Assembly: GCA_949283575.1 (NCBI GenBank)
Contig: CASDSU010000028.1
Span: 316,849 to 380,848 of the forward strand
Direction: 5' to 3'
Origin: an uncultured Eubacteriales bacterium
GTDB lineage: Bacteria; Bacillota; Clostridia; TANB77; UBA1234
DNA: 64,000 nucleotides
In this document: positions 1 through 27,897 of the stretch, piece by piece
Layout of the letters: each line of letters opens with the position of its first letter
Position numbering within the stretch: position 1 is the stretch's first letter
Translations under genes and position numbers: made by a program
The notes under the pieces: generated by a model
Databases searched by the model: none
The model's input: only the letters and a program-made list of their open reading frames with translations
Told to the model about the DNA's origin: nothing

Positions 1-2289
1 TCATTATTTATAGGAATAGAAAAAAAAGTTGCATAAATTTTTTCACCGTTTTGAAATCTCTTTTCGATGACAAAATTCCCATCAATTTCTAAAATAGACT
101 GGAACAAACTGTTGTATGCTGGATGCACAATATCTCCATTTAAAGTCGAAAGAATAAATTCAACATAGCTTATAACGTTGATATCCATGCCTTCTTCACT
201 AATATTTCTAACTTCAATTTTTCTAAGTTCAACATTTTCTTCAGATGATACAAAAATTTGTGTTAAAGTCTCAATATCGCCATCTCTTCGATAAAATTTT
301 GCATCATGTGATGAAAAAGAAACTCCATACTCATCTGCTTTTTTATTCACCGGATTTTCAGTGTTAGACCAAAATTCATTCGTCGTTAAATTTTTTATAT
401 AAGTTACGTTGCTTTGCTTTTGAACATTGTTAAATCTCGTAAGATAAATATCACCGATTTTACTGTATCCATCACCACTTCCGCTAATTAACAAAGTGTG
501 TTCGTTGTTTGTTAATATGTTCACATTTTCTAAAGATTTGTTAGTAAAATCTTCAGCTTCTTCTTCAAAATCTTGATATTTTAATTTCTTAACATTTTCT
601 TTTTTCTCATTCGCATAAAGCGGCGCTGTTGGCAATTTTTCTTGCAACAGAATTTCTACTTTTCTTATTTCCGAATTTTTTTCAAAATATTTTCGCAAAA
701 TATTTTGATTTAAAAAGTTATTTATTGAAAGTAAAATTAATGCTTGATGATGCGCCATATAAGTTTTTACAACTTCAATTTTTTTATTTTGTACCCTTGA
801 TGGCGTAAAATCAATTGATTCATAAAATCCAAACTTGTCAAAAGAATCAAGCTCTTTAAATTTCGCAATATTTTCTAAAACTCCTTCAAAATCATTTTCT
901 ATTGCCATAATACTCGAATATGGTGAAACAACAACATCGTCGTCAAGCCCTCTCTTAAGCCCAAGCCAAGGAACTCCGAACGCTTTATATTGATAATTAT
1001 ATTTTAAATCTTTAAGTGCAAAAGCAGATTCTGATATCCCCCAAGGAATGTTGAGTTTTTTTGCATACAATTGTTGACTATAAGTAACAAAATCGCATGA
1101 CTTTTCTATTAAAGAATTATTGTAATTTTTCATGATCACGTTTGGCATCAAGTATTCAAACATAGTTCCTGACCACGATACAAGACCATATTTACCATCA
1201 AACTTAGTACAAGTTCGTCCAAGACAAAACCAATGCTTGTATGGAATATCTTCTTTTGCAATCGCAACAAAACTTGCAAGTCTTGCTTCAGATGCTAATA
1301 AGTCATAATATGAATCAATCAATTTTTTTGACGAAACATCATATCCAATTGAAAATAAATTCTTATCATAATCATATAACTTACTAAAATCGGTATTATC
1401 AATCAAAAACTGAATTCTATTTTGAAGTTCTACCTCCAAATTATTTTCTTCAAGCATTCCTTTTAGTGCGTATAAATATCCTATAAAATTCCCACTATCA
1501 ACTGACGAAATAAACTCTGGCTTAAGTGGTTTTAATGTTTTTATGTTGTACCAATTATATAAATGTCCATTCCATTTTTCTAAACTTTCTATCGTGCTCA
1601 TAATATTTTTAATTCGTTTTAGCGCATCTTCTTGTTTTATAAAACCTAAGTTATACGCTGAAACTATTGCCATGAGACTTAACCCAACATTCGTTGAAGA
1701 AGTATAATTTGTAATCTCTTCTTTTCTACTTTCATCAAAATTATCGGGCATCAAATAATTATTTTTCTCATTTATATACGTATCAAAAAATAACCATGTC
1801 CTCTTTGAAATTTCAAGTAATTCTTCTTTTTCTTTTGAAGTTATTTTAAATTTTTTCTTCATTCTAACCTTACTAATGTAATAAGCAACAAAAGGCGTGC
1901 TATACCAAACTAAAAACAAAAATCCTACTTGCATCAAAGTTAATCTATTGTATATAAGTGTCGTTAAGACTAATGTCAATCCTATAATTGGACTTATTAT
2001 CATTTCTCTTGCATATGTTTTTAAATCATTTCCAAGCATTTTTTCTGCATCTGCAGCAGTGACCCATTCAAGTAAGTTTCTTTTTGAAATAATAGTTCTA
2101 TACAGCGTTACACTAATTGCTTTCAAAGAGATTATAGCTTTATAAGGTAATAAAACAAAATTTATAATACAACGAATAAACGTCTCCTTCATCTCTTTTA
2201 AACTATCAAACATCCTTCTTTTTATTCCCATAATAAGTGGAAAGAATGTAAGAATTATAGGAAGCCAAAAATATCCGAAGAAAAAATTG
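1..2289 (-). pseudogene. Cyclic beta-glucan synthase-like protein, C-terminal part (frameshifted, continues past window start)
   Basis: Reading the minus strand from about 2289 to 1 gives one uninterrupted frame with no stop. It continues the protein encoded immediately upstream at 2206-4524, but in the next frame. It begins with hydrophobic segments and an ATG-encoded peptide MGIKRRMFDS (start at 2231). It then reads into a soluble region with stretches such as MAHHQALILLSI and WSGTMFEYLMPN, which resemble the glucoamylase-like part of NdvB/Cgs cyclic glucan synthases and GH94-related proteins (family assignment from memory). The A6 run at 2281-2286 is the likely break: removing one A joins both frames as LVQFFFGYFWLP. 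The gene continues beyond the window. Either a real mutation or a sequencing error is possible. Confidence 0.7.
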
Positions 2290-4524
2290 CACAAGTATAA
2301 ATAGCTCTATTAAACTTCTTCTAAGATTATCTACCATTTTATATTTCGATAAAAAATTTATTTTTTTATTTTCAAGCCATGATAAAATTTGCCAATCACC
2401 TCGCATCCAACGATGCGACCTAAGCATGTATGAATTAACCTTGGCTGGAAATCCGTCTATAAGCTCAATATCCGAGGCAAGTCCTACGCGTAAATAACTT
2501 CCTTCAAGTAAGTCATGACTAAGAACTTTATTTTCAGGAATTTCATCTCGCAAAACTTCGTCAAATATTTTTAAATTATAAATTCCTTTACCTGTGAAAA
2601 TTGCTTCACCAAATAAATCTTGATAAACATTTGACTCTGCAGTCGAATAAATATCAATACCTCCTGCACCCGCAAAAAGTTTTGAAAATATTGATGCTGA
2701 TGAAGCTTCAATTGAAAGGCCAACCTTTGGCTGTATTAAACCATATCCCTTTGTCACAATTCCTTTTTCTATTTTAGGTGCATTAAATGGGTGTTCCATC
2801 GTTCCAACCATTTTTTTCGCAGCATCAAAAGTTAGCTCTGTATCAGCATCAAGCGTGATTACATATTTTATTTTAGGTATATTTTTTATCGTATTTACCA
2901 CGAAAGTTCCTTGCTTTTTATAAAGTAAAAAATTATTGAACTCATTTATCATTCCTCTTTTTCGTTCATATCCTAAAAATGTTCCTTGCTTTTTGTTAAA
3001 CACTCTCTTTCTATACGCAAAATTAAAAATATTCGTATTGTACTTTTCATTAAGTCTTTGTGCCTCAGTTATTCCAGCTATTTTAACTTCTTCATCATGT
3101 GCCACCGTTTCTTCCTTTTCTTCAGAAGCATCACCTAAAAGGCAAAAATAAAGACCTGGAATTTTATTTCGCAAATAATAAACTTCAATACTTTGCATAA
3201 GTTCTTGTACTCTTTCTTTACTCTTTAAAAGAGTTGGAACAATTACAAAAGTATTTACATCTTCATCAATTTTTTCAAATCTTGGCAAAATTTTTGGCCT
3301 AACTAATTTTGAAACAACTTTATTTACAATCGTTACAAATACTTCTGAAAATGGAATAAATATTATTGGCCAAAATACATTCGAAATATTAAAACTAATT
3401 AAAAATGTAGGTACATATATAAATACTAAATATAAGAACAATTTATATTTACTAATAATCTTTTTAACATTTTCTTTTATATTATTTTTGTAACCAATTT
3501 TATTAAATAGTATATTACTCCTATCTCCTATCAAAATTTCACTCATATCCACTTCTGATTCTTCTATTAACTCATTTAGCTCATTTGCAACATATATCTC
3601 AGAAACTTCAGTTTTTTCAGCTATTTCTTTAATTCTATTTCTATAAATTTCTTTTGTCGTTTCATCTAATTTTTCATATATTTCATCTTTCGATAATATT
3701 TTTTCAACTACATTTACATTTTCAAAAATGTTTTTCCAATTTAATCTAGTAACATTTTTAAGGCTAATTATTGAATTACTAATAGATACCCTTCGAACTG
3801 CCATATCATAGTGCATTGCCTTTATTATCTCATCCGAAGAAGCACCACTTTTATTAATTTCTTCCTCCAAAATTTCTAAATATGGATTAGATATGCTCCC
3901 CATTTTCTTTAATTTAAAAATTAAATGTTCAACATACGACGCGGCTTCATTGTCTAGCTTTACATTCTTGTACCTATAAAATTTCTGTTCCGAAAAATCA
4001 TCATTTTTTATTACTCTTTCAATTAAACTTTCAACTTTAAATTTCTGAAGTTGATTAATTATTATTTTATCTGCAACATTTTTAATATGTTCAATTATTG
4101 CTATTTGTAGCATCAGTTGAAACTCATACAATTCACACTGCAAAAACACTTTTTGAGTCTGATATGCATTTATAAACGTCAATATTTTTTCTCTTGTGAT
4201 ATCTCCATCCGTGAAATTTACAAATTCTTTAGCAACAACATATATCCTCGAAACACCATCAATTGCCGGAAGTTTCTTGTAATTTTTTAGGCTAAGTGAA
4301 TTCAAAATAAAACTTACTTGTTCTTCAATAATGTAATAATTATCTAAAAGCCACTCTCCCGCAAGTGAGATTGGAACCTCTTTTTCAACGCTTTCTGAAA
4401 GTAACTTATATGCCTTAGTGATAACTTCAAAATCATTTATAACCTTTTTTAGTGGAAATGTTTTCTTGTTAGCATATCCACTTGTTTTATGATTTATTGC
4501 AAGTTTTTTTGCAAAACTCTCCAT
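2206..4524 (-). CDS. Cyclic beta-1,2-glucan synthase-like glycosyltransferase, N-terminal part (frameshifted)
   Basis: This is a membrane glycosyltransferase related to the GT84 part of NdvB/Cgs proteins, which polymerise glucose from UDP-glucose. Residues 1-350 are helical and soluble. Residues about 362-402 are hydrophobic membrane segments. A GT-A-like domain follows with LDADT at about 558-562 and RSHRWMRGDWQ near 712, fitting the DxD and Q/RxxRW motifs of processive transferases. The frame extends upstream to 4761, but the ATG at 4524 has a good ribosome binding site (AAGGGAG, 7 bases away), so I chose that start. The frame ends early at 2206 because of the extra base at 2281-2286; the natural continuation is in the next frame. 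The product in vivo (glucan or other polysaccharide) is not certain. Confidence 0.75.
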   Translation of the reverse strand: MESFAKKLAINHKTSGYANKKTFPLKKVINDFEVITKAYKLLSESVEKEVPISLAGEWLLDNYYIIEEQVSFILNSLSLKNYKKLPAIDGVSRIYVVAKEFVNFTDGDITREKILTFINAYQTQKVFLQCELYEFQLMLQIAIIEHIKNVADKIIINQLQKFKVESLIERVIKNDDFSEQKFYRYKNVKLDNEAASYVEHLIFKLKKMGSISNPYLEILEEEINKSGASSDEIIKAMHYDMAVRRVSISNSIISLKNVTRLNWKNIFENVNVVEKILSKDEIYEKLDETTKEIYRNRIKEIAEKTEVSEIYVANELNELIEESEVDMSEILIGDRSNILFNKIGYKNNIKENVKKIISKYKLFLYLVFIYVPTFLISFNISNVFWPIIFIPFSEVFVTIVNKVVSKLVRPKILPRFEKIDEDVNTFVIVPTLLKSKERVQELMQSIEVYYLRNKIPGLYFCLLGDASEEKEETVAHDEEVKIAGITEAQRLNEKYNTNIFNFAYRKRVFNKKQGTFLGYERKRGMINEFNNFLLYKKQGTFVVNTIKNIPKIKYVITLDADTELTFDAAKKMVGTMEHPFNAPKIEKGIVTKGYGLIQPKVGLSIEASSASIFSKLFAGAGGIDIYSTAESNVYQDLFGEAIFTGKGIYNLKIFDEVLRDEIPENKVLSHDLLEGSYLRVGLASDIELIDGFPAKVNSYMLRSHRWMRGDWQILSWLENKKINFLSKYKMVDNLRRSLIELFILVQFFLRIFLASYNSYILSTYYGNKKKDV

Positions 4525-4968
4525 TTTTTCACTCCCTTTGTCAACTTTAGTGTTGGCAAAAAAGGAAAAAATATGTACTTTTTCATTTTTTACATTTCTT
4601 CTGTATTTCTTTACATTATTTTTAACAAAAAAAATGAATATTTTGATGCAAAAAATATTTTCTTGAAATAACTTAACACCATTCATTGCAATATAAATTT
4701 TATTTTTATATATTGAAATAATAATATCTCTTTCATTTCTTCTATAAACTTCCCCTAACACTGTTTGTGCTGAACTATTCTAAATTTTAGAATCCTCCAC
4801 TACTTTAGTAGAAGAACTTATTTTAGCATCTCTATAATAATCTTCAAATAATTTTTTAAATCCTTTTTCAAACTCCTTATCAATTTAATTTTATATTAGT
4901 ACAATTTATTTATAAATGATACTTTTTTAACTCAAATAAATTGTTTGCTTTATACAAAAAAGAGTTGA

Positions 4969-4997
4969 TTGACATAATTCTGATTTAGTGTTAGAAT
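4969..4997 (+). promoter_or_regulatory. Sigma-70/SigA-type promoter
   Basis: TTGACA at 4969-4974, a 17-base spacer and TAGAAT at 4992-4997 form a near-consensus promoter. It lies about 155 bases upstream of the 5155 gene, leaving a long leader. Confidence 0.75.
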
Positions 4998-5004
4998 GTT
5001 GAAG

Positions 5005-5154
5005 TACTTTTAAAGCTCACTCTAACAGGTTTATGCTTTCACCTGTTACACATCTTTTTGTGTAGCTACATTCCTTTTACAAGGTTTGTTGAAAAAGCAG
5101 CATTCGTAACTTACTCTGTTTTATAACGCTCTGAAAAACAAGGAGGATTTCAAC
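5005..5154 (+). promoter_or_regulatory. Structured 5' leader of small-protein operon
   Basis: The untranslated leader contains a perfect hairpin at about 5026-5052 (TAACAGGT paired with ACCTGTTA), followed by a weaker CACA/TGTG pairing and an AAGGAGG ribosome binding site just before the start codon. The other GC-richer genes at 6.2 and 31.4 kb have comparable hairpin-rich leaders. I do not recognise a known riboswitch. Confidence 0.45.
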
Positions 5155-5667
5155 ATGACAAACTCAAGGTTGAACGCTGTTATCAAAAGCAGGAGAACCA
5201 CTAGCAATCGGCTAGCTCAGATTGCATGGGAATATAATCTCACCGCCGAGCAGGTTCTCTTTATGATTTGGCATGAACACACTACTGCCGATATCATAAA
5301 CAGCCTCTTTGCACGGTACAGCAAGTTTCCTGAAGTTTCTGAATCTGTCGCCAAACGCATCGATTTCATCGGTGATTACGCGATTGAAAGGCTTTCTGGT
5401 ATCCTTGCTATGAATATCCACTGTTGGAACAGAGAAGAGTGGAACAGCGTCATGAATGTGTTCAAGAAGAATATGCAGAAACACAGCTTTGCTCAGCACA
5501 GTGAAGTGCTTTATCTGAGCTACGATGACTGCATTAACAAATGTTCTGACGATGATGAGTCTGGTATCTTTGATAGCGAAGATGCTGCTCACTTATCTTC
5601 TTTCCGCAATCCATTCAGCGAATATGACCATTTGTCATATTCTTCGAACATCGCTGACTGGGAATAA
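5155..5667 (+). CDS. Small hypothetical protein, paralogue 1 of a three-member cluster
   Basis: This 170-residue soluble protein has no family I recognise. It starts MTNSRLNAVIKSRRTT after an AAGGAGG site. It aligns with the next gene product through most of its length: KLTATLKNPR-like start, LTAEQ/LTTEQ, FPEVSESVAKR/FPEVAAAIARR, and a closing W-E-x-V/V-L-x-x-FK block. The acidic Ser/Asp-rich tail after residue 130 is unique to this copy. Base composition is clearly richer in G and C, with codons such as CTC, CGC and GCC, than the AT-rich genes on either side, suggesting horizontal acquisition. It has its own strong promoter and leader and is probably co-transcribed with the next gene, 46 bases downstream. 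Confidence 0.75.
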   Translation: MTNSRLNAVIKSRRTTSNRLAQIAWEYNLTAEQVLFMIWHEHTTADIINSLFARYSKFPEVSESVAKRIDFIGDYAIERLSGILAMNIHCWNREEWNSVMNVFKKNMQKHSFAQHSEVLYLSYDDCINKCSDDDESGIFDSEDAAHLSSFRNPFSEYDHLSYSSNIADWE

Positions 5668-17163: not shown

Positions 17164-17239
17164 CGGGGTGTGGCTCAGTTGGTAGAGTACGTGGTTTGGG
17201 ACCATGGGGCCGGAGGTTCGAGTCCTCTCACCCCGACCA
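17164..17239 (+). tRNA. tRNA-Pro (TGG anticodon)
   Basis: The acceptor stem CGGGGTG pairs with CACCCCG, the anticodon loop TTTGGGA gives TGG, the T loop is GGTTCGAGTCC, and CCA is encoded. Its 3' end is the apparent integration site of the element to its right. Confidence 0.95.
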
Positions 17240-17241
17240 TT
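17228..17241 (+). repeat. Left attachment site core
   Basis: TCACCCCGACCATT is the end of tRNA-Pro plus two bases. It matches the right-hand copy at 27884-27897 with one mismatch. Confidence 0.6.
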
Positions 17242-17439: not shown

Positions 17440-17493
17440 TCTTTAAATCTAAGTATTTATGCTTCTTTAAGCGAAATGAAAGGAGCAATAAAT

Positions 17494-18081
17494 ATGGCAT
17501 TTCTAGCCTATAAAGCAAATGAATGCTTTAACCATCAATATATCAAAATTCCAAAAGACCTATTCATTAACCCACTTTATAAACATTTAAATTCAGATAG
17601 CAAGATAATATACGGCTTTTTGCTAGACAGACTTAGTTTGTCAATTAAAAATAATTGGATAGATGAAAAAACTGGTAATGTTTATCTAATTTTCACTAGA
17701 AAGAAAATCCAAGAACTGTTACATTTATCAGATAAAACAGTTACTAAAGCTTTTAAGGAACTAAAAGCTTGCGAGCTAATCTACGAAAAAAGGCAGCAAT
17801 GCTCAAAGCCAAACATTATTTACATAGCTAAAATAAAACCTTATTTTGGTAATTCTGCTCAGAGCCGTAAAAATTACGATTCTGAACACGGAAATTCTAC
17901 GACTCCAGAGTCGGAAAATTTACGACCTAATAAGACTAATAATAGTAAAACTAATATAGATAATAATTTTAACTTTAAAAATTTCGATAATAGATTTAGA
18001 GATACCACAGGTCAATATGAAAACTTAGATAGATTCCTGGCAAATGCAAATGATTTTATAAAAAATGAAGGAGGACTTTAA
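17494..18081 (+). CDS. RepA_N-type replication initiator-like protein
   Basis: This 195-residue protein has an N-terminal region YIKIPKDLFINPLYKHLNSD and a winged-helix part with FTRKKIQELLHLSDKTVTKAF, similar to the N-terminal domain of RepA proteins of Gram-positive plasmids and integrative elements. The C-terminal part is polar and low in complexity. The ATG at 17494 has AAAGGAG 8 bases before it. It is the first gene inside the element and sits next to the TTTCACGAA repeats. It may support replication of the excised circle, or regulate. Confidence 0.7.
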   Translation: MAFLAYKANECFNHQYIKIPKDLFINPLYKHLNSDSKIIYGFLLDRLSLSIKNNWIDEKTGNVYLIFTRKKIQELLHLSDKTVTKAFKELKACELIYEKRQQCSKPNIIYIAKIKPYFGNSAQSRKNYDSEHGNSTTPESENLRPNKTNNSKTNIDNNFNFKNFDNRFRDTTGQYENLDRFLANANDFIKNEGGL

Positions 18082-18082
18082 A

Positions 18083-18436
18083 ATGGATTTAGAATATGTA
18101 AAAAGAGGCGATTACTACTTACCTAATCTTGAATTGCAAAACAAAAATAAGAGAGTAAATTTAGGAAAATATGCAAGGCTAAGAGAAAACTTTTTAAGAA
18201 ATTCAAAGCCTGGATTTTTTAATCACTTGGTAATGAAAGAAGAATTAATTGATCACTTAATCGAAATAAATAATCAAGCTTGTAGCTATTTAGAAACACT
18301 TATAAAACAACTTGCTGAAGAAGAAAATGTTACAGAAAATCTAAAAGCTACTAATCAACTTGAATGGATACAGAAGATGAATAATATTAAAAATCGAGCT
18401 GAAGAAATCGTGCTTAATGAACTAATTTATAATTAA
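18083..18436 (+). CDS. tnpV: TnpV-like transposon-encoded protein
   Basis: This 117-residue protein resembles TnpV of clostridial mobile elements: DYYLPNLEL, LGKYARLRENFL, LIDHLIEINNQACSYLE and the ending WIQKMNNIKNRAEEIVLNEL. Its function is not established. The start at 18083 follows AAGGAGG. It begins one base after the RepA-like stop, so the two are coupled. Confidence 0.75.
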   Translation: MDLEYVKRGDYYLPNLELQNKNKRVNLGKYARLRENFLRNSKPGFFNHLVMKEELIDHLIEINNQACSYLETLIKQLAEEENVTENLKATNQLEWIQKMNNIKNRAEEIVLNELIYN

Positions 18437-18464
18437 AATTTCAAAAGAAATGAGGTATAAACTA

Positions 18465-18788
18465 ATGAATGAATTTGAATTGTTTAATATAGAAAATATA
18501 GATTTTAGTGAGATGATTGATAAGGCAAAAGTCACCTTACGAAACAAGAATCTTGAATATAAAAACTTACAAAATGAAGTAGCAAAAATAATGGATAGCC
18601 ATCCAAATTTACAATTAATTTGTGAAGATGATGAGGATATAACTTTAAATAAAAATGATAGCAAGATGCTTCAAAAACTTTTCAATTTAAACCTCGAAAT
18701 TAAAAATTTTGAAGAGCAAGCAATCTTCTTTTTAGGAGGTCGAGAAGCCTACTTTTATTTTAAAAACATTGGAATTTTGAAAGAGTAA
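18465..18788 (+). CDS. Hypothetical element protein
   Basis: This 107-residue, acidic, mainly helical protein (FNIENIDFSEMIDKAK; NLQNEVAKIMDSHPNLQLI) has no family I can name. A GAGG site lies 10 bases before the ATG. It lies 28 bases after tnpV and ends the plus-strand operon of the element before a terminator. Confidence 0.6.
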   Translation: MNEFELFNIENIDFSEMIDKAKVTLRNKNLEYKNLQNEVAKIMDSHPNLQLICEDDEDITLNKNDSKMLQKLFNLNLEIKNFEEQAIFFLGGREAYFYFKNIGILKE

Positions 18789-18884: not shown

Positions 18885-19003
18885 AATTTGCAATTTTTAT
18901 TACATAGCAAGCACTGAATTGGTAATACTTCCAATTCAGAAAATGGAGCAAAAGCCCCAATCCCCATTTAGAAAAAATTCTACTATAAGTTTCTCTCTTT
19001 AAT

Positions 19004-21532
19004 TTATATCACAACTAATTGCTTCATTTTATTTTTTACTTTTTCATATATTTCCAATTCTTCTTCGGGTGCAACTTCAAAAGTAACAAATAAAGCATAT
19101 TTGACTGCATCTTTATTTTTATCAGCATCTTCCCTACAATTTATTTTTATTTTTAGTTCATCATTTTCATCCCAGATTCCTGCTTTCTCACTTTCAAAAA
19201 TTTCATGTTGAAGCGTTCCTTTTTTTACTTTTTGCCATTCAGTATTTTGTCTTTCCATATAAAATTTTTCTAAATTTTCAACATCAAACCAAAGTTGTGT
19301 TTGCCTATATGCTTGTTTAGCTGAATTCGTTGGTGAAATGTATGCTAAAGTTACTGTTAATCTTTTTCTCATTGTTTTATTTGCAAAGTTAAAAGGTAGT
19401 GGCAAATTATAGACATGAGCATTATCTACATTTAAGCTTCCCATACCAATCAGCGTCACTCTATTTTTAGCACATTCTTTAACTTTTTCTATATCAGGAA
19501 TACCATTTCCAAGCCATCTAAACAATTTTTTATCTGTTTCTTCTACATAAGAACTTAAAAACTCTTTTACGTTATCCCAAGATGCTCCGTGCGTGAGCAT
19601 CGCTTTTATTAAAACTGCTATATACTCTTGTGGAAAATTAACATTATCTTGCATAAAAATTTCTTTTAAAATTTCGTAGCATTTTCCTGCTTCATGAGTA
19701 ATTTGTGCTGTTGCATCACTTGTTCCCCAAGTATAAGCTATTCCATCTAAATCTCCGTTTCTATTTGGTGCAGCCACCTTACATCCAGGCTCATAAAAAT
19801 TATTCAACCATTTAATCTGTCTTCTTGCTATATCTTCTATTAATAATTTTCTACCACCGTAATAAAACAAATCTGGTTTTATCATTCTATTATATCCCAA
19901 TCCAAAGCTAGATATAGGACTAGGTAATCCTCTATTAATTCCAAAAATTTGTCTTTCACTTTCAAACGTGTTACAAAAATCATCATATAATGCTCCAACT
20001 GTAATATTATTAATTGATTCTGCTGGAGAAAGAATTTTATAATTCGACTTATTTTTTTGTATTAAATCAAATACAATTCGACTACGTTCACTAATGTTTT
20101 TCCCTTTAAAGATTGTAAATTTTTCCTCAATAGTACTTAGACTTTTTTGGTTTCCAGCGCTTATTATGAATAATATATCATATTTATAACTAAGCCAATC
20201 TAGTAGCCTAGCAAGAGGACTGATTGATGTCCCTAGTTGTCTTGAAGTATCACCAAGTGATAAATTAATAATCCTAACACTTGGAGCTATCGGTTCTTCA
20301 TTATTTTCACCTTCAATCATTCTTTTAACACTTCTTAATATTAAATCTACTAATAATCTATCAGTTGGTACTACTTCATCAACATAGTTATCTCCAGATT
20401 TATTTGGTTTTAAAATAGGTCTTATATATAGTTTTTCTTCTAACGCACTATCATTCCTATTTAAATCTCCATATATAATCAACGATGCCATAGAAGTTCC
20501 ATGAATTCTATCTTTTACTTGATAAAACTTCTCATATTCATCAGGATCATCAATTATCAACCTATCTTTTAATTGTTGATGGTTTTGCATCGGGAATCCA
20601 TCAAATAAGGCAATTATTGGTTCTTCATTTATATTAGTTTTATTAACTTCAAATTTCCTATCACTTCTAATATCCGAAAGTGTATTCTCAAAGTTTGCTT
20701 GACATGCAGGTCGGAAGAACATAATATTATCTACGTTAGCTAACTTAACTTCTTTATAATTTAAAACTAATTGTTCAATCTTTTCTCTAGGTAATTTAAC
20801 TAATATAGCATTATATAAAATTTCTTCAATACATATACTCGATACAATTTCGCCTTCCATATCAGTTATAATATCTCTAAGTTCTTGTTGTATTTCATCT
20901 CTTTTCGATTTATCTTTTCTGTAGAACAATTCAATTTCAAAAGGAACAAATTGATTTCCATCAATTTGCAAAGATTCTTTCCAATATTCTAAAACTTTTG
21001 TATCGTAAATTCGATCACTAGCATCCCATATTCTCACATTTTTTAATAAAGCAAACACTTCTTTTAATGGTCCTAGGCCTCTTTCAAATTTATACTGTTT
21101 ATCTTCTGAGTACTTTTTCCATGCAGATATAACTTGTTGTATGGCTTTTTGATTACTCATGATGCAATATACTCTTCCATTTAATTCCCTTTTTGAATCA
21201 TCATTGCTATAAAAATCTTCATCTGGTTCTATATCGTTAACTTCCCAATCTAAAATCCACTCTAATCCATCAATTTTACTAACTGCCTTATAAAAGTTTC
21301 CAACATTCCCAATCACTTCAAAAACTAAAGCATATTCAGGATTAATTCCAGTCATCGTTTCTTGTAATACTAACCTTTTCTTTTCAAAAGTTTCTTGAAG
21401 CTTTTGAAAAGAAGGTTGCAATCTATTAAATTGTCTTGTTAAAGTTGGCTTATGTATCTCTGGATGAAAGCCTCGACTTTTATCTCTATAAACTTTTTCT
21501 GGTTCTGGAAATAATAATAATGGTCTATTCAT
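19004..21532 (-). CDS. Subtilase-family (S8) serine protease paired with AAA+ ATPase
   Basis: This 842-residue cytoplasmic protease has no signal peptide. Numbered from the ATG at 21532, the catalytic triad is Asp at about 311 (IALFDGFP), His at about 344 (RIHGTSMASL) and Ser at about 605 (YTWGTSDATAQITHE), with the oxyanion Asn in IISAGN (about 461). About 300 residues before the catalytic domain and 200 after it have no family I recognise. The ATG overlaps the stop of the ATPase gene, so the two are translationally coupled. Co-occurring S8 peptidase and AAA genes are known in defence contexts; I recall names such as IteS/IteA but cannot check them. Confidence 0.85.
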   Translation of the reverse strand: MNRPLLLFPEPEKVYRDKSRGFHPEIHKPTLTRQFNRLQPSFQKLQETFEKKRLVLQETMTGINPEYALVFEVIGNVGNFYKAVSKIDGLEWILDWEVNDIEPDEDFYSNDDSKRELNGRVYCIMSNQKAIQQVISAWKKYSEDKQYKFERGLGPLKEVFALLKNVRIWDASDRIYDTKVLEYWKESLQIDGNQFVPFEIELFYRKDKSKRDEIQQELRDIITDMEGEIVSSICIEEILYNAILVKLPREKIEQLVLNYKEVKLANVDNIMFFRPACQANFENTLSDIRSDRKFEVNKTNINEEPIIALFDGFPMQNHQQLKDRLIIDDPDEYEKFYQVKDRIHGTSMASLIIYGDLNRNDSALEEKLYIRPILKPNKSGDNYVDEVVPTDRLLVDLILRSVKRMIEGENNEEPIAPSVRIINLSLGDTSRQLGTSISPLARLLDWLSYKYDILFIISAGNQKSLSTIEEKFTIFKGKNISERSRIVFDLIQKNKSNYKILSPAESINNITVGALYDDFCNTFESERQIFGINRGLPSPISSFGLGYNRMIKPDLFYYGGRKLLIEDIARRQIKWLNNFYEPGCKVAAPNRNGDLDGIAYTWGTSDATAQITHEAGKCYEILKEIFMQDNVNFPQEYIAVLIKAMLTHGASWDNVKEFLSSYVEETDKKLFRWLGNGIPDIEKVKECAKNRVTLIGMGSLNVDNAHVYNLPLPFNFANKTMRKRLTVTLAYISPTNSAKQAYRQTQLWFDVENLEKFYMERQNTEWQKVKKGTLQHEIFESEKAGIWDENDELKIKINCREDADKNKDAVKYALFVTFEVAPEEELEIYEKVKNKMKQLVVI

Positions 21533-22541
21533 CAAAATTATCAACTTCTTTCTCTATTACTTCTGCTTTTACTTGCGCATCCCATAGGTTTAATTCTTCT
21601 TCCGTTATTCTTTTCGCACTTTTAATTGGCAAATTTAAAATATACCTTCTATATATAGATAATGCTAACTCTTCATTTTCAGCGAAACTAAATCCTTTCA
21701 TTCTTTCTGCTAATACACTTTTTGATACTCCAAATGAAAATTTCTTTTTCTTTTCAAATAAAGCATACCATTTCTCTAAGTCTTTTTTCTCCGGCTTCGG
21801 TAAATTTAATTTAATTTGAAATCTTCTCCAAGCTGCTCTATCTAATAAACTTTCATGATTGGTTGCACCAATTACAACTACATAACTAGGTAAAGAATCA
21901 ATATGTAATAATAATGAACTAACCACTCTTTTTATTTCACCAGTTTCATGTTTATCTCCACGTTCTTTTCCTAAAGTTTCAAACTCATCAAAAAATAAAA
22001 CGCATTGTCTAGCACTTGCATATTCAATAAGTCTTGAAAGTCTATTAGCCGTTTCCCCCAAATAAGAACCAATTATACTTTCATACTTAACAGTTAAAAG
22101 TGGTACAGACAATTCTTGTGCTATAGCTTCTGCTAATGACGTTTTTCCATTACCCGGAGGTCCAACTAATAATATTTTATTTCTAGGTTCAACCCCATAA
22201 GACCTAAGTATATCTGAACGCAATTGCTCTTCAATTATCTGATTGCAACTTTCTCTCACATTTTTGGGTAAAAGTAAATCATCTAATCTTTTTTCTGGCA
22301 TTTTTTCAATTGCTAAATTTTGTTCAACTATATTACTTTTTGTACAAGAATAATGTATATTTGTATTTCTAATATCATTATATTTGTGATTTCTTAATGT
22401 TTCTTCAATTTTATTAGCAAACACATTATGTTGTTTAGCTCTTTCTTCTGCGCAAATAGCCTCTACTGATTTTATAAAATTGTTTTTATCATTATTCAAG
22501 CCATATTTTATTATATTAAAAATTAAATCTGATCTTGCCAT
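21525..22541 (-). CDS. AAA+ ATPase partner of the subtilase
   Basis: This 338-residue AAA protein has Walker A VGPPGNGKTS (127-136), Walker B VLFFDEFE (181-188), a sensor-1 GATNHESLLDRAAWRRF and arginine fingers near 239-240. The first 80 residues form a helical N-terminal region. It resembles the single-ring AAA proteins that unfold or remodel substrates. The gene is first in the pair with the protease (8-base overlap), following AGGGGATG upstream of ATG. A natural reading is ATP-driven feeding or activation of the protease. That is inference. Confidence 0.85.
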   Translation of the reverse strand: MARSDLIFNIIKYGLNNDKNNFIKSVEAICAEERAKQHNVFANKIEETLRNHKYNDIRNTNIHYSCTKSNIVEQNLAIEKMPEKRLDDLLLPKNVRESCNQIIEEQLRSDILRSYGVEPRNKILLVGPPGNGKTSLAEAIAQELSVPLLTVKYESIIGSYLGETANRLSRLIEYASARQCVLFFDEFETLGKERGDKHETGEIKRVVSSLLLHIDSLPSYVVVIGATNHESLLDRAAWRRFQIKLNLPKPEKKDLEKWYALFEKKKKFSFGVSKSVLAERMKGFSFAENEELALSIYRRYILNLPIKSAKRITEEELNLWDAQVKAEVIEKEVDNFDE

Positions 22542-22601: not shown

Positions 22602-22815
22602 CTATTCTGTTTTTAATGCCTTAACTATATTCTCCGCTATTCTGTTTATAACAGGTACTACAACACTATTACCAGCTTGTTTGTATAATCTTGCATCACT
22701 CATATCTTTAGGTAATTCATATGTTTTTGGATACCCTTGTGCATAAAAACATTCAATAGGAGTTAATTTTCTAATTCCAAATTGTGTTTTTATTAATGGG
22801 ACATTATGTCCGGCC
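22602..22815 (-). pseudogene. DNA cytosine-C5 methyltransferase, C-terminal part (frameshifted)
   Basis: This frame encodes GHNVPLI then FGIRKLTPIECFYAQGYP and YKQAGNSVVVPVINRIAENI, which are motifs IX-X of C5 methyltransferases. It lacks a start and continues the upstream fragment after a single extra base near 22811-22815. Removing one C of GGCCGG on the minus strand restores MGEGGHNVPLI, the expected family sequence. Confidence 0.8.
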
Positions 22816-23571
22816 TTCTCCCATATTAGCTGTTAATGTAGGAACTAAATTACTTTGATTCTTTCTTACATATTTTCTTCTCCATTGGTAAACCGTATCA
22901 TCATCATCCATTTCAGAACTTAACATGTCATATATTTCTCCTTTGAATTTACCTGGAGTGTAATAATATTTTTCATCAACTTTATTTTCAAAATTAAAAA
23001 CATTCTTTATGGTATTCTTAAGTTCTATCGGTAATGGCATTTGAAAATTATCATAATCTTTCTTATCTCTAAAAGCTACAATATATATTCTTTCTCTATT
23101 TTGTGGAACATCTCCATATTCACAAGCGTTTAAAACTTGATATCTTATTTTGTCTTTATATCCAGCTTCTTCAAGTTTTTCAATAATTATTCTAAATGTT
23201 TTTCCTTTATCATGTCCAACAAGATTTTTTACATTTTCTAAAAATATAACTCTAGGTTTTCTAACTTTAAAAATTCTTTCCATCTCAAAGAATAAATCCC
23301 CAGTTTTATCGTCTTCAAAACCCTTTCTATAACCAGCTACTGAAAAAGATGTACAAGGAAAACCACCTACCATAATATCAAATTCCGGTATTTCTTCTAA
23401 TTTAACATCATGTATATCCCTACAATCAACTTTATGATTAAAATTCTTTTCATAAGTTTCTACTGCATATTTATCAAACTCATTTGCATACGCAACTTCA
23501 CAATTATTAGTTTGTATAAAGCCTAAATCTATTCCTCCAACACCTGCAAAAAGACTACAAATTTTGTACAT
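22804..23571 (-). CDS. DNA cytosine-C5 methyltransferase, N-terminal part (frameshifted)
   Basis: Methyltransferases of this class transfer a methyl group from SAM to C5 of cytosine in a target sequence. Motif I is SLFAGVGGIDLGF (6-18), motif IV GGFPCTSFSVAG carries the catalytic Cys at about 73, motif VI is ENVKNL (112), and motif VIII is QNRERIYIVAF. The start is the ATG at 23571 with AGGAGG 9 bases before it. The frame ends prematurely in GRT; the last 70 or so residues (motifs IX-X) lie in the next frame. The target sequence cannot be told. The next gene on the same strand, upstream, is the likely restriction partner. Confidence 0.85.
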   Translation of the reverse strand: MYKICSLFAGVGGIDLGFIQTNNCEVAYANEFDKYAVETYEKNFNHKVDCRDIHDVKLEEIPEFDIMVGGFPCTSFSVAGYRKGFEDDKTGDLFFEMERIFKVRKPRVIFLENVKNLVGHDKGKTFRIIIEKLEEAGYKDKIRYQVLNACEYGDVPQNRERIYIVAFRDKKDYDNFQMPLPIELKNTIKNVFNFENKVDEKYYYTPGKFKGEIYDMLSSEMDDDDTVYQWRRKYVRKNQSNLVPTLTANMGEGRT

Positions 23572-23641
23572 TTTATTATTCCTCCTTAACATTTTGCGGC
23601 ACGCCGCAGTTATTTTTTTCAAAGAATAGAATTTAAAAATT

Positions 23642-24802
23642 CTATTCTTTGTCTGTACTACTATCTTCGCTTAATAATTCTTCGTATGTTCCTATATTGG
23701 TAAAATCTATTTTATAGATTCTATCATCTATTTTTGTAAAGACTACTGAATCAACTCCAAATTTTTCTAGCATTTCATATGTTATTAAAGTTCCTTCTGG
23801 TAATTCAAAAACATCTCTCAAAAGCCATTTACCTAATTCATAATTAGGGTTACTCATTATTGCTTTACCATCAGCTTGACATACTTTAGCTGATAACATT
23901 TTACCATCTGGTAATGTTAGGGTAAATGATTCTTCTCTTGATGGGAAAAATCCGACACTTCTTTCTCTATCAAAAGCAGGATAAGGAATATATAGCTCAT
24001 TTGGATTTCGAACTCTTCCTCCTGCATTCCATTGATTTAATCCACTTTTTTCATGAACAATTTTTTCACCAGATGCAGTTGTAGAATATAACCTTAAACA
24101 TAATTGCTCATACTCTTTTCCTTTTTCATCAAGTATTTCTTTAACTTCTGATACAACACTTTCTTCACCGACTAACTTTTCAAGATATTCATATGGATCT
24201 TCCAGTATATTGACATCAAATGAATCTAATAAAGTCATTCCTTCAAAAGTCATATATAGTGTACTTTTACTAATATTAAAATGATATTCGTGCTTACCAT
24301 CATTAAAATAAATATTGGTACTTGAACCTTTATCTTTATTTAATTTTATATTTTCTATATCTATCATTTCAAAAGCATATTCATATATTTGCATTGCATT
24401 TGGTACTCTTTTTACTATGTGATATATCATTTCAGTAATTCCGTGAAGTTTCATAGTAATTCTTATACGCTCATTTCTATATTCAGCGATTTTTTGTATC
24501 ATTTCCTCTTTAAGTAAGCTCATATATGATGCTTTAAGTTTATTAAATTCTGCAACTTTTTGATTATCTGTATCTACCCAAGTTTTTAATCCAATTCCTG
24601 TTGTTACTTTTTGAGCATCTGCAGAGCAATCTTCTCTACTTAAATTTCTTGCTTCAAAATACTTGCAAAAAATATTTTCGTGACATCTGTAATAAAGAAA
24701 TGGTTTATCACTTTCTGAAAATAAATTTGACAAGCTACCAATTATCTTAAGCATTTTTTTGTAATTTTCTCTTTGGTTAGATGGTTGTTTATCATAAAAC
24801 AT
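23642..24802 (-). CDS. Probable type II restriction endonuclease (NgoFVII/B3-like C-terminus)
   Basis: This 386-residue protein is encoded next to the methyltransferase on the same strand. The C-terminal 140 residues contain GLNQWNAGGRVRNPNELY, PAFDRERSVGFFPSREESF, ADGKAIMSNPN and KWLLRDVFELPEGTLITYE. I associate these with the B3-like DNA-recognition domain of NgoFVII-type restriction enzymes (recalled, not searched). The N-terminal part has a Cys/His cluster (YYRCHENIFCKYFEARN) and long helices; I cannot place a catalytic motif with confidence. It would cut the sequence that the C5 methyltransferase protects. Confidence 0.6.
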   Translation of the reverse strand: MFYDKQPSNQRENYKKMLKIIGSLSNLFSESDKPFLYYRCHENIFCKYFEARNLSREDCSADAQKVTTGIGLKTWVDTDNQKVAEFNKLKASYMSLLKEEMIQKIAEYRNERIRITMKLHGITEMIYHIVKRVPNAMQIYEYAFEMIDIENIKLNKDKGSSTNIYFNDGKHEYHFNISKSTLYMTFEGMTLLDSFDVNILEDPYEYLEKLVGEESVVSEVKEILDEKGKEYEQLCLRLYSTTASGEKIVHEKSGLNQWNAGGRVRNPNELYIPYPAFDRERSVGFFPSREESFTLTLPDGKMLSAKVCQADGKAIMSNPNYELGKWLLRDVFELPEGTLITYEMLEKFGVDSVVFTKIDDRIYKIDFTNIGTYEELLSEDSSTDKE

Positions 24803-24880: not shown

Positions 24881-25714
24881 CTATGTATTTTTACTCCTAA
24901 ACTTATAAACGTTCGCCTTGTTCTTACAAGCTGGTATATCGTACTCAGCTTTTGGATTTACTGCCAAAAATGGCTTATCGCAATATCTACAAATCTTTAA
25001 TTTTCTTACTTCTGCCATAACTTCTGAAACGAATACAGCATCCATTGCATTTTTTAATGTTTCATATTTTAGAACTAACTCTTTTCCATTTTTACTTTCA
25101 AATAATGTTGCAAAATCGTTAGTATTTAATTCACTATCTTCTTCATTTTGAATTTGCATTAAATCTTCATATAGCTGCTTTGCATACTTTGTTATCATTT
25201 CCAACGGTTCTCCATAATCGTGTGAAAATGCAAAATTCATATTAATTAGCATCTTTGAATTTTCTGTAATTCTATTTGCTTTTATATTTTCTTTTGCCGT
25301 TACAATCTTATCTACAATATCTTGATTTAGTAAGTTTGGCATAAATATACGAATGTACGATATTACATCTGCTTTTATTAAATATTCATCTATCATTTTA
25401 TCTTCTTTCAAAACTATTTCATTATCTATAAAGTATAATTCGTTAACAGGAAAGTAATTTATAAAACCAAACAATCCATATTTACTTACAAAATCCATTA
25501 CTTGTCCTTCTACATCTATTTCATTGAAATAAACACTTTTTCCAACGTCTAATAACTCTATAAGTACATCTGTTACTTTTTCATTTATATTACTTTCTTG
25601 AATTTGAGCATTATCTGCTGGAAAAATATATTTTCTTTCTTCAATTTCTTTTATTACATACTCACTATACTTATATAGCTGTGAATCTTCCCCCATTGAA
25701 TAATTAAAATTCAT
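24881..25714 (-). CDS. Hypothetical protein with C-terminal zinc-ribbon-like motif
   Basis: This 277-residue protein has a helical body and ends with CRYCDKPFLAVNPKAEYDIP followed by a third Cys and a Lys/Arg-rich tail. The layout resembles CGNR-type zinc-binding ends seen in some DNA- or RNA-binding proteins. I cannot name the family. The start at 25714 is chosen because GGGGG lies 6 bases upstream. It is the first minus-strand gene of the defence cargo and may be its regulator, since a 14-base inverted repeat lies 47 bases before its start. Confidence 0.55.
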   Translation of the reverse strand: MNFNYSMGEDSQLYKYSEYVIKEIEERKYIFPADNAQIQESNINEKVTDVLIELLDVGKSVYFNEIDVEGQVMDFVSKYGLFGFINYFPVNELYFIDNEIVLKEDKMIDEYLIKADVISYIRIFMPNLLNQDIVDKIVTAKENIKANRITENSKMLINMNFAFSHDYGEPLEMITKYAKQLYEDLMQIQNEEDSELNTNDFATLFESKNGKELVLKYETLKNAMDAVFVSEVMAEVRKLKICRYCDKPFLAVNPKAEYDIPACKNKANVYKFRSKNT

Positions 25715-26137
25715 AAACATCCCCCAAAATTTAAAAAAACTCAAAAGTAATCATTGACATTTATAATTGATTACTATAAAATCTAGGTAATCAATTATAA
25801 ATAAAATAAATTACTAATTGATTAAAAAAGACCTCTTTTGTAACCTTTTTATCAATAATTAGATTACACTATGTCGTATAAAATTTCAATACTTAAAAAA
25901 ATATTTTTTCCTCTATCTATTGCTATCACTGATGTTTTTTGATTTATTTTTTTATTCAAAAAATTTTTCAGAAAAAATGTGTGTTTTGCATTTCTGAATG
26001 GATATTAATAATAGAGGACAAAAAAATAAAACTGGTTACAAAAATTTTATAAAAGGAGGTCTAAATTTTTCACATATTGTAAATCCAAATTTTAATTAAT
26101 GTCCTCGAAGAATTATTTAAAATTGGAGGAATGTACA
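25715..26137. other. Divergent intergenic region of the element
   Basis: It separates the minus-strand cargo from plus-strand xis-int. It contains a promoter-like TTGACA, a perfect inverted repeat and a third TAATTGATTA half site. I see no gene here. Confidence 0.6.
25754..25800. promoter_or_regulatory. Operator-like perfect inverted repeat with promoter
   Basis: TTATAATTGATTAC (25761-25774) is repeated in inverse at 25787-25800 after a 12-base spacer. TTGACA at 25754-25759 with TAAAAT 17 bases later overlaps it. A dimeric repressor site is likely. Confidence 0.6.
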
Positions 26138-26326
26138 ATGAACGAAGAAATCAAATTATACACAACAACAGACGTAAGAAAATTACTAAAGATTGGAAAT
26201 AAGAAATGTTTGGAGCTATTCCATAGTTCGGACTTTCCTAGTATCAAGATTGGCAAATCATTTTTTGTTAAAGCGGATTGCTTAAATGAATATTTAAGTC
26301 AAAAACGCATTTTCAAAAATAGCTAA
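26138..26326 (+). CDS. xis: Excisionase-like MerR-type DNA-binding protein
   Basis: This 62-residue protein is similar to the small excisionases and helix-turn-helix proteins of clostridial elements: YTTTDVRKLLKIGNKKCLEL and FPSIKIGKSFFVKADCL. It would bind near the attachment site and steer the integrase towards excision. The ATG at 26138 follows TTGGAGG; the upstream in-frame ATG at 26099 lacks a good site. It lies 23 bases before the integrase gene. Confidence 0.8.
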   Translation: MNEEIKLYTTTDVRKLLKIGNKKCLELFHSSDFPSIKIGKSFFVKADCLNEYLSQKRIFKNS

Positions 26327-26349: not shown

Positions 26350-27732
26350 ATGAAATTAGAAGGAATAACAGTGGGAACATACACAAATCGTAAGCTTAAA
26401 ACAAATCTGAAATTTCCAATAAAAAAAGTCTGTAAGAAATGTAAATCTATTTTTGACTGCAACAATAAAAAAGATATTAAAAGTTTAATAAAATGTCCAA
26501 AGTGTAAAGCTGATTTATATTATCAAAATCCTAACGATTACTATACTTCCAAGGTTTCAAAAGCCATTCTAAATCTAGGCAAGGATCTAAATAACAAACC
26601 TGTAAAGAAAACTTTTACTGGTAAAACTGAAGAAGAAGCTTTAAGAAAACTTTATGCTTATAAAGATAATCTTGAAAAGACAGAAGGTCCTATTATTTTA
26701 AACAGAATTGCAAATTTTACTTTAAGTGATATTATTAGACATTTAAAAGATGAAGCTTTAAAAATGGGCAAAATAAGCAAGAATACATACAAAACAAATA
26801 TAGCCTCACCTAAGAGATTGCAGAATCATAAACTAGCTTTTAAACCTGTAAATAAAGTTTCAAGAATGGATATTTTAAGCTATTTTGAATCTATCAGAGA
26901 TTACTCTGATAGCACGATTAAAAAACAATTTGAAATTGTTGCTCAAGCATTTACATATGCTTATTATCAAAAATTGATTAACCAAAACTTCTTTGAGGGA
27001 TACAACAAAATTGGAATGCCAAGTAGCAATATAGTTACAGAGCCTATAACAGCTCTTACTATCGAAGAAGAAAAGACTTTAATTGAATACTTGGTAAAGA
27101 CTCCATACTCAATGTGCAAGCACAAATTCTTACTTCTACTTTTAATTAGCACAGGCTTGAGAATTGGAGAGGCTTTAGCAATATCAACTGATGATGTTGA
27201 TATAAAAAATGGGAAACTATCTATAAAAAGAACGTTGACCAAAGACGTTGACAACACAACTATTATCGGAACTACTGCAAAAACATATTCAGGCAAAAGA
27301 ACATTAAACTTAAATACTATGAGCCGAAAAGCATTAAATGGAGCTTTGCAACATATCATCAAGAATAAAAGCAATTTAATCTTCTGCAAAGATGATAAAA
27401 CTTTATACGAAGAAGGCTCAATCAATTCAGCACTTAAAAGAATATGTGTTAAATGCAATATTAGAGTTAAAAATTATCTAAATAAAAGTGGTAATGAAAC
27501 TGTTACAAGCGAAGTTCATACTCATATTTTGAGGCATACGTTTGCAACAAGATGTGTTGAAGCAAAAATTGCTCCTGCAGTTTTACAAAAACTTATGGGA
27601 CATACAGACATTGCTACAACAATGAAATACTATGTTAATGTAGATGACCATTTTGAAATATCTGAATACAAAAATGTTGAAAGTTATTTGGAAAAGAACG
27701 ATTTGTTCCTACTAATAAACGAAATTTCATAA
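26350..27732 (+). CDS. int: Tyrosine recombinase (integrase) with N-terminal zinc ribbon
   Basis: This 460-residue integrase joins and excises the element at tRNA-Pro. Catalytic residues are visible: Arg in TGLRIGEAL, HTHILRHTFATR (about 390-401), His in GHTDIATT and Tyr in MKYYVNV (about 427-428). The N-terminal 60 residues hold two CxxC pairs (CKKCKSIF, CPKCKAD), an unusual zinc-ribbon ahead of the arm-binding domain. The ATG has AAGGAGG upstream. It is adjacent to the right attachment site. Confidence 0.92.
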   Translation: MKLEGITVGTYTNRKLKTNLKFPIKKVCKKCKSIFDCNNKKDIKSLIKCPKCKADLYYQNPNDYYTSKVSKAILNLGKDLNNKPVKKTFTGKTEEEALRKLYAYKDNLEKTEGPIILNRIANFTLSDIIRHLKDEALKMGKISKNTYKTNIASPKRLQNHKLAFKPVNKVSRMDILSYFESIRDYSDSTIKKQFEIVAQAFTYAYYQKLINQNFFEGYNKIGMPSSNIVTEPITALTIEEEKTLIEYLVKTPYSMCKHKFLLLLLISTGLRIGEALAISTDDVDIKNGKLSIKRTLTKDVDNTTIIGTTAKTYSGKRTLNLNTMSRKALNGALQHIIKNKSNLIFCKDDKTLYEEGSINSALKRICVKCNIRVKNYLNKSGNETVTSEVHTHILRHTFATRCVEAKIAPAVLQKLMGHTDIATTMKYYVNVDDHFEISEYKNVESYLEKNDLFLLINEIS

Positions 27733-27883: not shown

Positions 27884-27897
27884 TCACCTCGACCATT
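27884..27897 (+). repeat. Right attachment site core
   Basis: TCACCTCGACCATT differs from the tRNA-Pro end by one base. The next bases lead into a strong terminator. Confidence 0.6.

Follow-up and report, generated by a model that had tools for sequence, protein, structure and literature searches.

A divergent IetAS gene pair, probably defence cargo, in a small tRNA-Pro-integrated element of a Eubacteriales genome

We examined a gene pair and its surroundings in a stretch of 64,000 nucleotides from an uncultured Eubacteriales bacterium (contig CASDSU010000028.1), called the window below. Both genes, ietA and ietS, were found on the minus strand with ietA first; their coordinates agreed with those of an earlier note on this DNA, which had left the strand unstated. 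The pair comprises the following features:

21525..22541, minus strand: ietA, AAA+ ATPase of 338 aa, putative antitoxin/regulator (PADLOC IetA, Pfam AAA, conservation, AF2 model)
19004..21532, minus strand: ietS, cytoplasmic subtilase of 842 aa, putative toxin/effector (PADLOC IetS, Pfam S8, catalytic set, AF2 model)
21525..21532, minus strand: overlap of 8 nt between the ietA stop and the ietS start (coordinates and family start consensus)
18944..18959, minus strand: terminator-like hairpin 45 nt 3' of ietS (consensus match only)

The open frame of ietS covers 19004-21544 and reads 846 aa from a TTG at 21544; the ATG at 21532 is the start that matches the family consensus, and it gives the 842-residue subtilase described earlier. 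The overlap of the ATPase stop with the protease start, also reported in the earlier note, may couple the translation of the two genes. Terminator-like hairpins numbered three in the region against 1.7 expected by chance, and the promoter scan remained at chance level (47 found and 47 expected).

Both proteins gave full-length matches to PADLOC models, in the comparison with defence-system models that had been proposed for them. IetS scored 1007 bits against PDLC04233 (residues 6-843 of the 846-aa frame, model positions 3-847 of 855) and IetA scored 470.5 bits against PDLC04232 (residues 1-328, model positions 1-324 of 330). Judged by these matches, the pair is IetA/IetS (IetAS), an already described phage-defence and toxin-antitoxin system, and it resembles the PADLOC system in gene order, overlap and active sites, with no substantive difference found. 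The names IteA/IteS, given in the earlier note for pairs of this kind in defence islands, turned out to be the NCBIfam spelling of the same system. The NCBIfam pair shares the two-gene architecture and is homologous over IetA 7-313 and IetS 165-744, but its IteS model has 747 positions and the IetS of the window is about 95 aa longer. The NCBIfam equivalog cut-offs were missed by both proteins (NF042959, IteA: 224 vs 510; NF042956, IteS: 85.9 vs 900). Since these scores are far under the cut-offs, the pair is IetAS in the wider sense, on a branch well removed from the one that NCBIfam defines; it is a divergent copy from a well-populated subfamily. A further PADLOC match in IetS, to the TIR-like ThsB, was weak (E 0.0042), had no stretch passing alone, and was set aside as chance.

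IetA was confirmed as a complete AAA ATPase with Walker motifs. The Walker A (GPPGNGKT, residues 127-134) and Walker B (LFFDE, 182-186) motifs were near-invariant in the 76 IetA rows, and the protein also has a pore-loop-like SYLG at 159-162 and an Arg finger at R239. In particular, the Walker lysine, the DE pair and R239 were retained in 75-76 of the 76 rows, and an aromatic-hydrophobic-Gly pore loop (Y/F-L-G) was conserved across the alignment. The AlphaFold (AF2) model had a pLDDT of 85.6, and fold comparison placed its AAA module nearest to p97, FtsH and proteasomal ATPases. The conserved pore loop and Arg finger make a substrate-gripping hexamer plausible for IetA. Residues 1-51 (window 22389-22541) are predicted to form a three-helix N-terminal domain, in which R3, D5, L6, E27, E33 and H38 were invariant (48-row alignment); this domain is a candidate IetS-binding or substrate-binding module.

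The catalytic set of IetS (D311/H344/N461/S605, 842-aa numbering) is intact, as the earlier note had read it, and was invariant in 61 of 61 full-length homologues. The protein was also said to lack a signal peptide, in agreement with the absence of a hydrophobic stretch near its N terminus (maximum 19-residue hydropathy -0.71); no segment of membrane-spanning strength was found elsewhere in IetS (hydropathy maximum 1.54). Fold comparison matched the AF2 model (pLDDT 88.8, pTM 0.92) to SubHal and KP-43, subtilases of the KP-43 type (Z 26.3, rmsd 3.3, 385-387 aligned residues). A sequence search against solved structures gave no match at E up to 0.001, and the resemblance to subtilases among them was reached through fold comparison only. 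The domains assigned to IetS were:

21029..21337, minus strand: predicted domain 1, beta-alpha-beta-beta-alpha-beta (AF2 model residues 69-171)
20708..20947, minus strand: predicted domain 2, elements ordered as in domain 1, immediately preceding the catalytic domain (AF2 model residues 199-278)
19592..20629, minus strand: S8 catalytic domain (Pfam S8 and fold comparison)

The order of secondary-structure elements in the model suggests a ferredoxin-like topology for domain 1, for which no Pfam family was found. In subtilisins, an inhibitory prodomain precedes the catalytic domain. Several alignment rows placed the first residue of mature subtilisin BPN' at IetS model residue 296, which puts domain 2 in the position of that prodomain. 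Domain 2 is followed by Gln278 (842-aa numbering), invariant in 61/61 homologues, and then by a hypervariable linker (7% mean identity). Neither Inhibitor_I9 nor any other inhibitor or prodomain Pfam family was detected in the 45 IetS members searched at E up to 1. A tentative possibility raised by the model is that IetS may be an intracellular zymogen, with domain 2 as a built-in inhibitor, and that release of the protease would be gated by the ATP-driven grip of IetA on the N-terminal domains. Should this hold, the anti-phage toxin would be controlled by an AAA+-gated prodomain switch. IetAS systems occur widely and are listed as anti-phage; the copy in the window adds a subfamily with a confident structural model and, from the model of IetS, a concrete hypothesis of control in which the ATPase would gate a prodomain-like domain.

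The placement of the pair inside an integrated element, as claimed in the earlier note, was borne out by a tRNA-Pro gene, 14-bp att repeats and a tyrosine integrase, and by the agreement of its ends with those in two relatives. The element measures 10.7 kb, from 17228 (tRNA-Pro) to 27897, and its features besides ietA and ietS are:

17228..17241, plus strand: left att core, in the 3' end of tRNA-Pro (17164-17239)
17476..18081, plus strand: RepA_N-domain replication initiator-like protein
18065..18436, plus strand: TnpV family protein
18450..18788, plus strand: DUF6664 protein
22602..23622, minus strand: C5-cytosine DNA methyltransferase, frameshifted (intact frame 22804-23622)
23642..24802, minus strand: type II restriction endonuclease, 386 aa, with NgoFVII-like C-terminal domain
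24881..25744, minus strand: backbone protein, 287 aa, no family match
26138..26323, plus strand: excisionase-like small protein, 61 aa, weak PHROG match of unknown function
26350..27732, plus strand: tyrosine integrase of the element
27884..27897, plus strand: right att core, 13/14 identical to the left core

The size and place of the 61-aa protein suggest an excisionase-like role. The att core and backbone recur in two other genomes of the genus, with about 94% (locus L096) and 73% (locus L097) DNA identity; the cargo slot in these genomes is the same, with wholly different contents. The slot holds IetAS and a type II restriction-modification pair in the window; a HaeIII-type restriction pair, a CBASS cyclase and a 2TM effector in L096 (genome G025); and Dodola, a MmeI-like type IIG enzyme, an AbiP2 reverse transcriptase and a PDC-S01 candidate in L097 (genome G034). 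When the right flank was used to look for an empty site in the genus, only the window's own genome and G025 came up, so the ends of the element rest on the comparison of occupied sites.

We found no relaxase among the scanned proteins of the tRNA-Pro element. The window's own genome contains a second element (L159, G000:C28:128500-147800) beside tRNA-His/tRNA-Gln, with the same three left-end genes (RepA_N, TnpV and DUF6664) together with MobC, a relaxase, a Schlafen/AlbA_2 protein and a related integrase. This element is likely a mobilizable relative, and its relaxase suggests a mobilizable ancestry for the element of the window. The tRNA-Pro form looks like a derivative of a mobilizable element that would have lost its relaxase and that carries exchangeable defence cargo. 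The DUF6664 backbone protein was not confirmed in any viral contig.

The methyltransferase adjoining ietA is broken: its C-terminal part (motif GNSV..P) runs on in another frame to 22602, yet the endonuclease at 23642-24802 is open. Since an active endonuclease without protection should be lethal, either the frameshift arose in the assembly or the endonuclease is silent or inactive.

Full-length IetS was present in 1 of the 385 genomes of the order (the window's own) and in 4 of 398 genomes in the phylum sample (own included), and the other full-length matches in that sample were also accompanied by IetA (3/3). Relatives of IetA with 46-72% identity were found in many phyla, including Firmicutes, Proteobacteria, Acidobacteria, Chloroflexi and Planctomycetes. 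Plasmid-borne homologues amounted to 99 records, and the phage records searched for IetS gave one marginal match. In the survey seeded with IetA, the two genes were adjacent in 59/59 full-length pairs, with between -167 and 34 nt separating them and an overlap in 24. The set of viral contigs seeded with IetS comprised 23 loci, some of them near-duplicates and one with its IetA cut by the contig end, and IetA stood directly upstream in all 19 loci that had room upstream. The gene linkage on which the earlier note had made its reading depend thus held wherever IetS was intact and the locus had room upstream. Divergence of IetA and of IetS was correlated (r = 0.89, 0/2000 permutations), which argues that the partners travel together, though the correlation partly reflects shared ancestry. 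A housekeeping or quality-control protease pair with no link to phage or mobile elements, as the general likeness to AAA+ proteases might suggest, is very improbable given the sporadic occurrence of full-length IetS, its location in a tRNA-integrated element with swapped cargo, and the neighbours of its relatives, which include type I restriction subunits, other nucleases and recombinases.

IetA was found without an intact IetS at seven loci, with IetS missing in L018, L022, L023 and L075 and broken in L048, L063 and L071; the IetA-seeded contig survey is blind to lone IetS, which biases it towards lone antitoxins over lone toxins. Among the IetS-seeded loci with upstream room, none had an intact IetS without IetA (0/19). 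Loss of the protease while the ATPase stays is a toxin-antitoxin signature, and this genomic asymmetry in IetAS is consistent with the published neutralisation of relatives. In L022, L023 and L075, ietA is intact and ietS is absent nearby. Pairing of the lone IetA with a different effector was discarded, as the same three loci had no common downstream partner.

The relatives studied by others bear on the roles of the two proteins. The sgiAT genes of SGI1 are homologues of IetA/IetS that encode a subtilase toxin and an ATPase antitoxin (PMC5006074), the subtilase of a mycoplasma pair was toxic in E. coli and was neutralised fully by the ATPase partner (PMC8562856), and in the minimal cell deletion of the ATPase gene alone was lethal, with the double deletion being viable (PMC6755753). 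The earlier note had proposed a regulated intracellular protease tied to an ATPase; regulated and intracellular both stand, but the proposal was incomplete, because the roles in these relatives point to an ATPase whose part is to hold the protease in check, not simply to feed it. An IetA that acts as a positive partner, unfolding substrates (or the N-terminal domains of IetS) or threading them into IetS as part of an ATP-dependent protease, would suit the fold neighbours and the retained pore loop described above. It is nevertheless quite improbable: in the relatives the protease is toxic alone and the ATPase neutralises it, and lone IetA is recurrent, with no lone intact IetS seen.

We consider it probable that IetAS is here the defence cargo of a small integrative element, in which IetA restrains a toxic IetS and infection releases it. 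Our own observations cover which system this is, the conservation of its pairing, the intactness of both active sites, the asymmetry of gene loss and the mobile setting, and toxicity and neutralisation were reported by others on relatives; the trigger, the substrates, the abortive outcome and the protection by the window's copy are what we infer. IetS would be a cytoplasmic subtilase, toxic once free, and IetA, an AAA+ ATPase presumably able to form hexamers and translated immediately ahead of it, would hold it inactive through binding and/or ATP-driven remodelling. Infection, probably through some feature of the phage DNA-replication machinery, would upset this control; released IetS might then cut cellular or phage proteins, and growth would stop before phage are made, i.e. 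abortive infection. The replication-machinery trigger is second-hand: later papers place ietAS among phage-defence systems and tie phage replication proteins to activation or escape. Our literature search found no mechanism paper for IetAS, in line with the earlier remark that mechanism and trigger are poorly described.

With a toxin-antitoxin arrangement, losing the element would carry a penalty as well, and an addiction module only, in which IetA is lost faster than IetS and element-free cells are killed, with no part in phage defence, is the alternative suggested by the many plasmid-borne homologues. According to its citations in PMC5006074 and PMC8562856, Yamamoto 2009 first described IetAS as a plasmid-stability toxin-antitoxin system, and the SGI1 homologue favours maintenance of its island (PMC5006074). 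However, the SGI1 operon with its own promoter on a plasmid gave no post-segregational killing (PMC5006074), PADLOC and reviews class ietAS as anti-phage, and the cargo slot of relatives of the same element holds phage-defence systems. We regard addiction alone as unlikely. The reading we prefer, defence cargo in which IetA restrains IetS, is further supported by the adjoining and exchanged cargo of the element, which consists of defence genes.

SgiAT of SGI1 and the mycoplasma pair TA132/3 are like the pair in the window: the ATPase antitoxin gene precedes the subtilase toxin gene, the two overlap or adjoin, and they lie on or close to mobile elements. Neutralisation has been shown in those relatives. 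The mycoplasma toxin T133 differs in length (757 aa vs 842 aa in the IetS of the window), and the branch relation of the window's IetAS to SgiAT and TA132/3 was derived from model scores and lengths. At the level of the element, SGI1-like IMEs and prophage or satellite defence hotspots are similarly tRNA-integrated, with a fixed backbone and variable defence cargo, but the backbone here differs in being made of RepA_N, TnpV, DUF6664 and a tyrosine integrase. The IetAS system is known, and the element is the newer aspect: with its fixed backbone and with cargo swapped between species of one genus, it forms a natural store of defence modules in compact form. Finally, in G025 (L096, reverse-complement coordinates 949-5557) the left neighbour of the element is not tRNA-Pro but a region with its own tyrosine integrase, which suggests that elements have piled up there by tandem accretion at the same att site.
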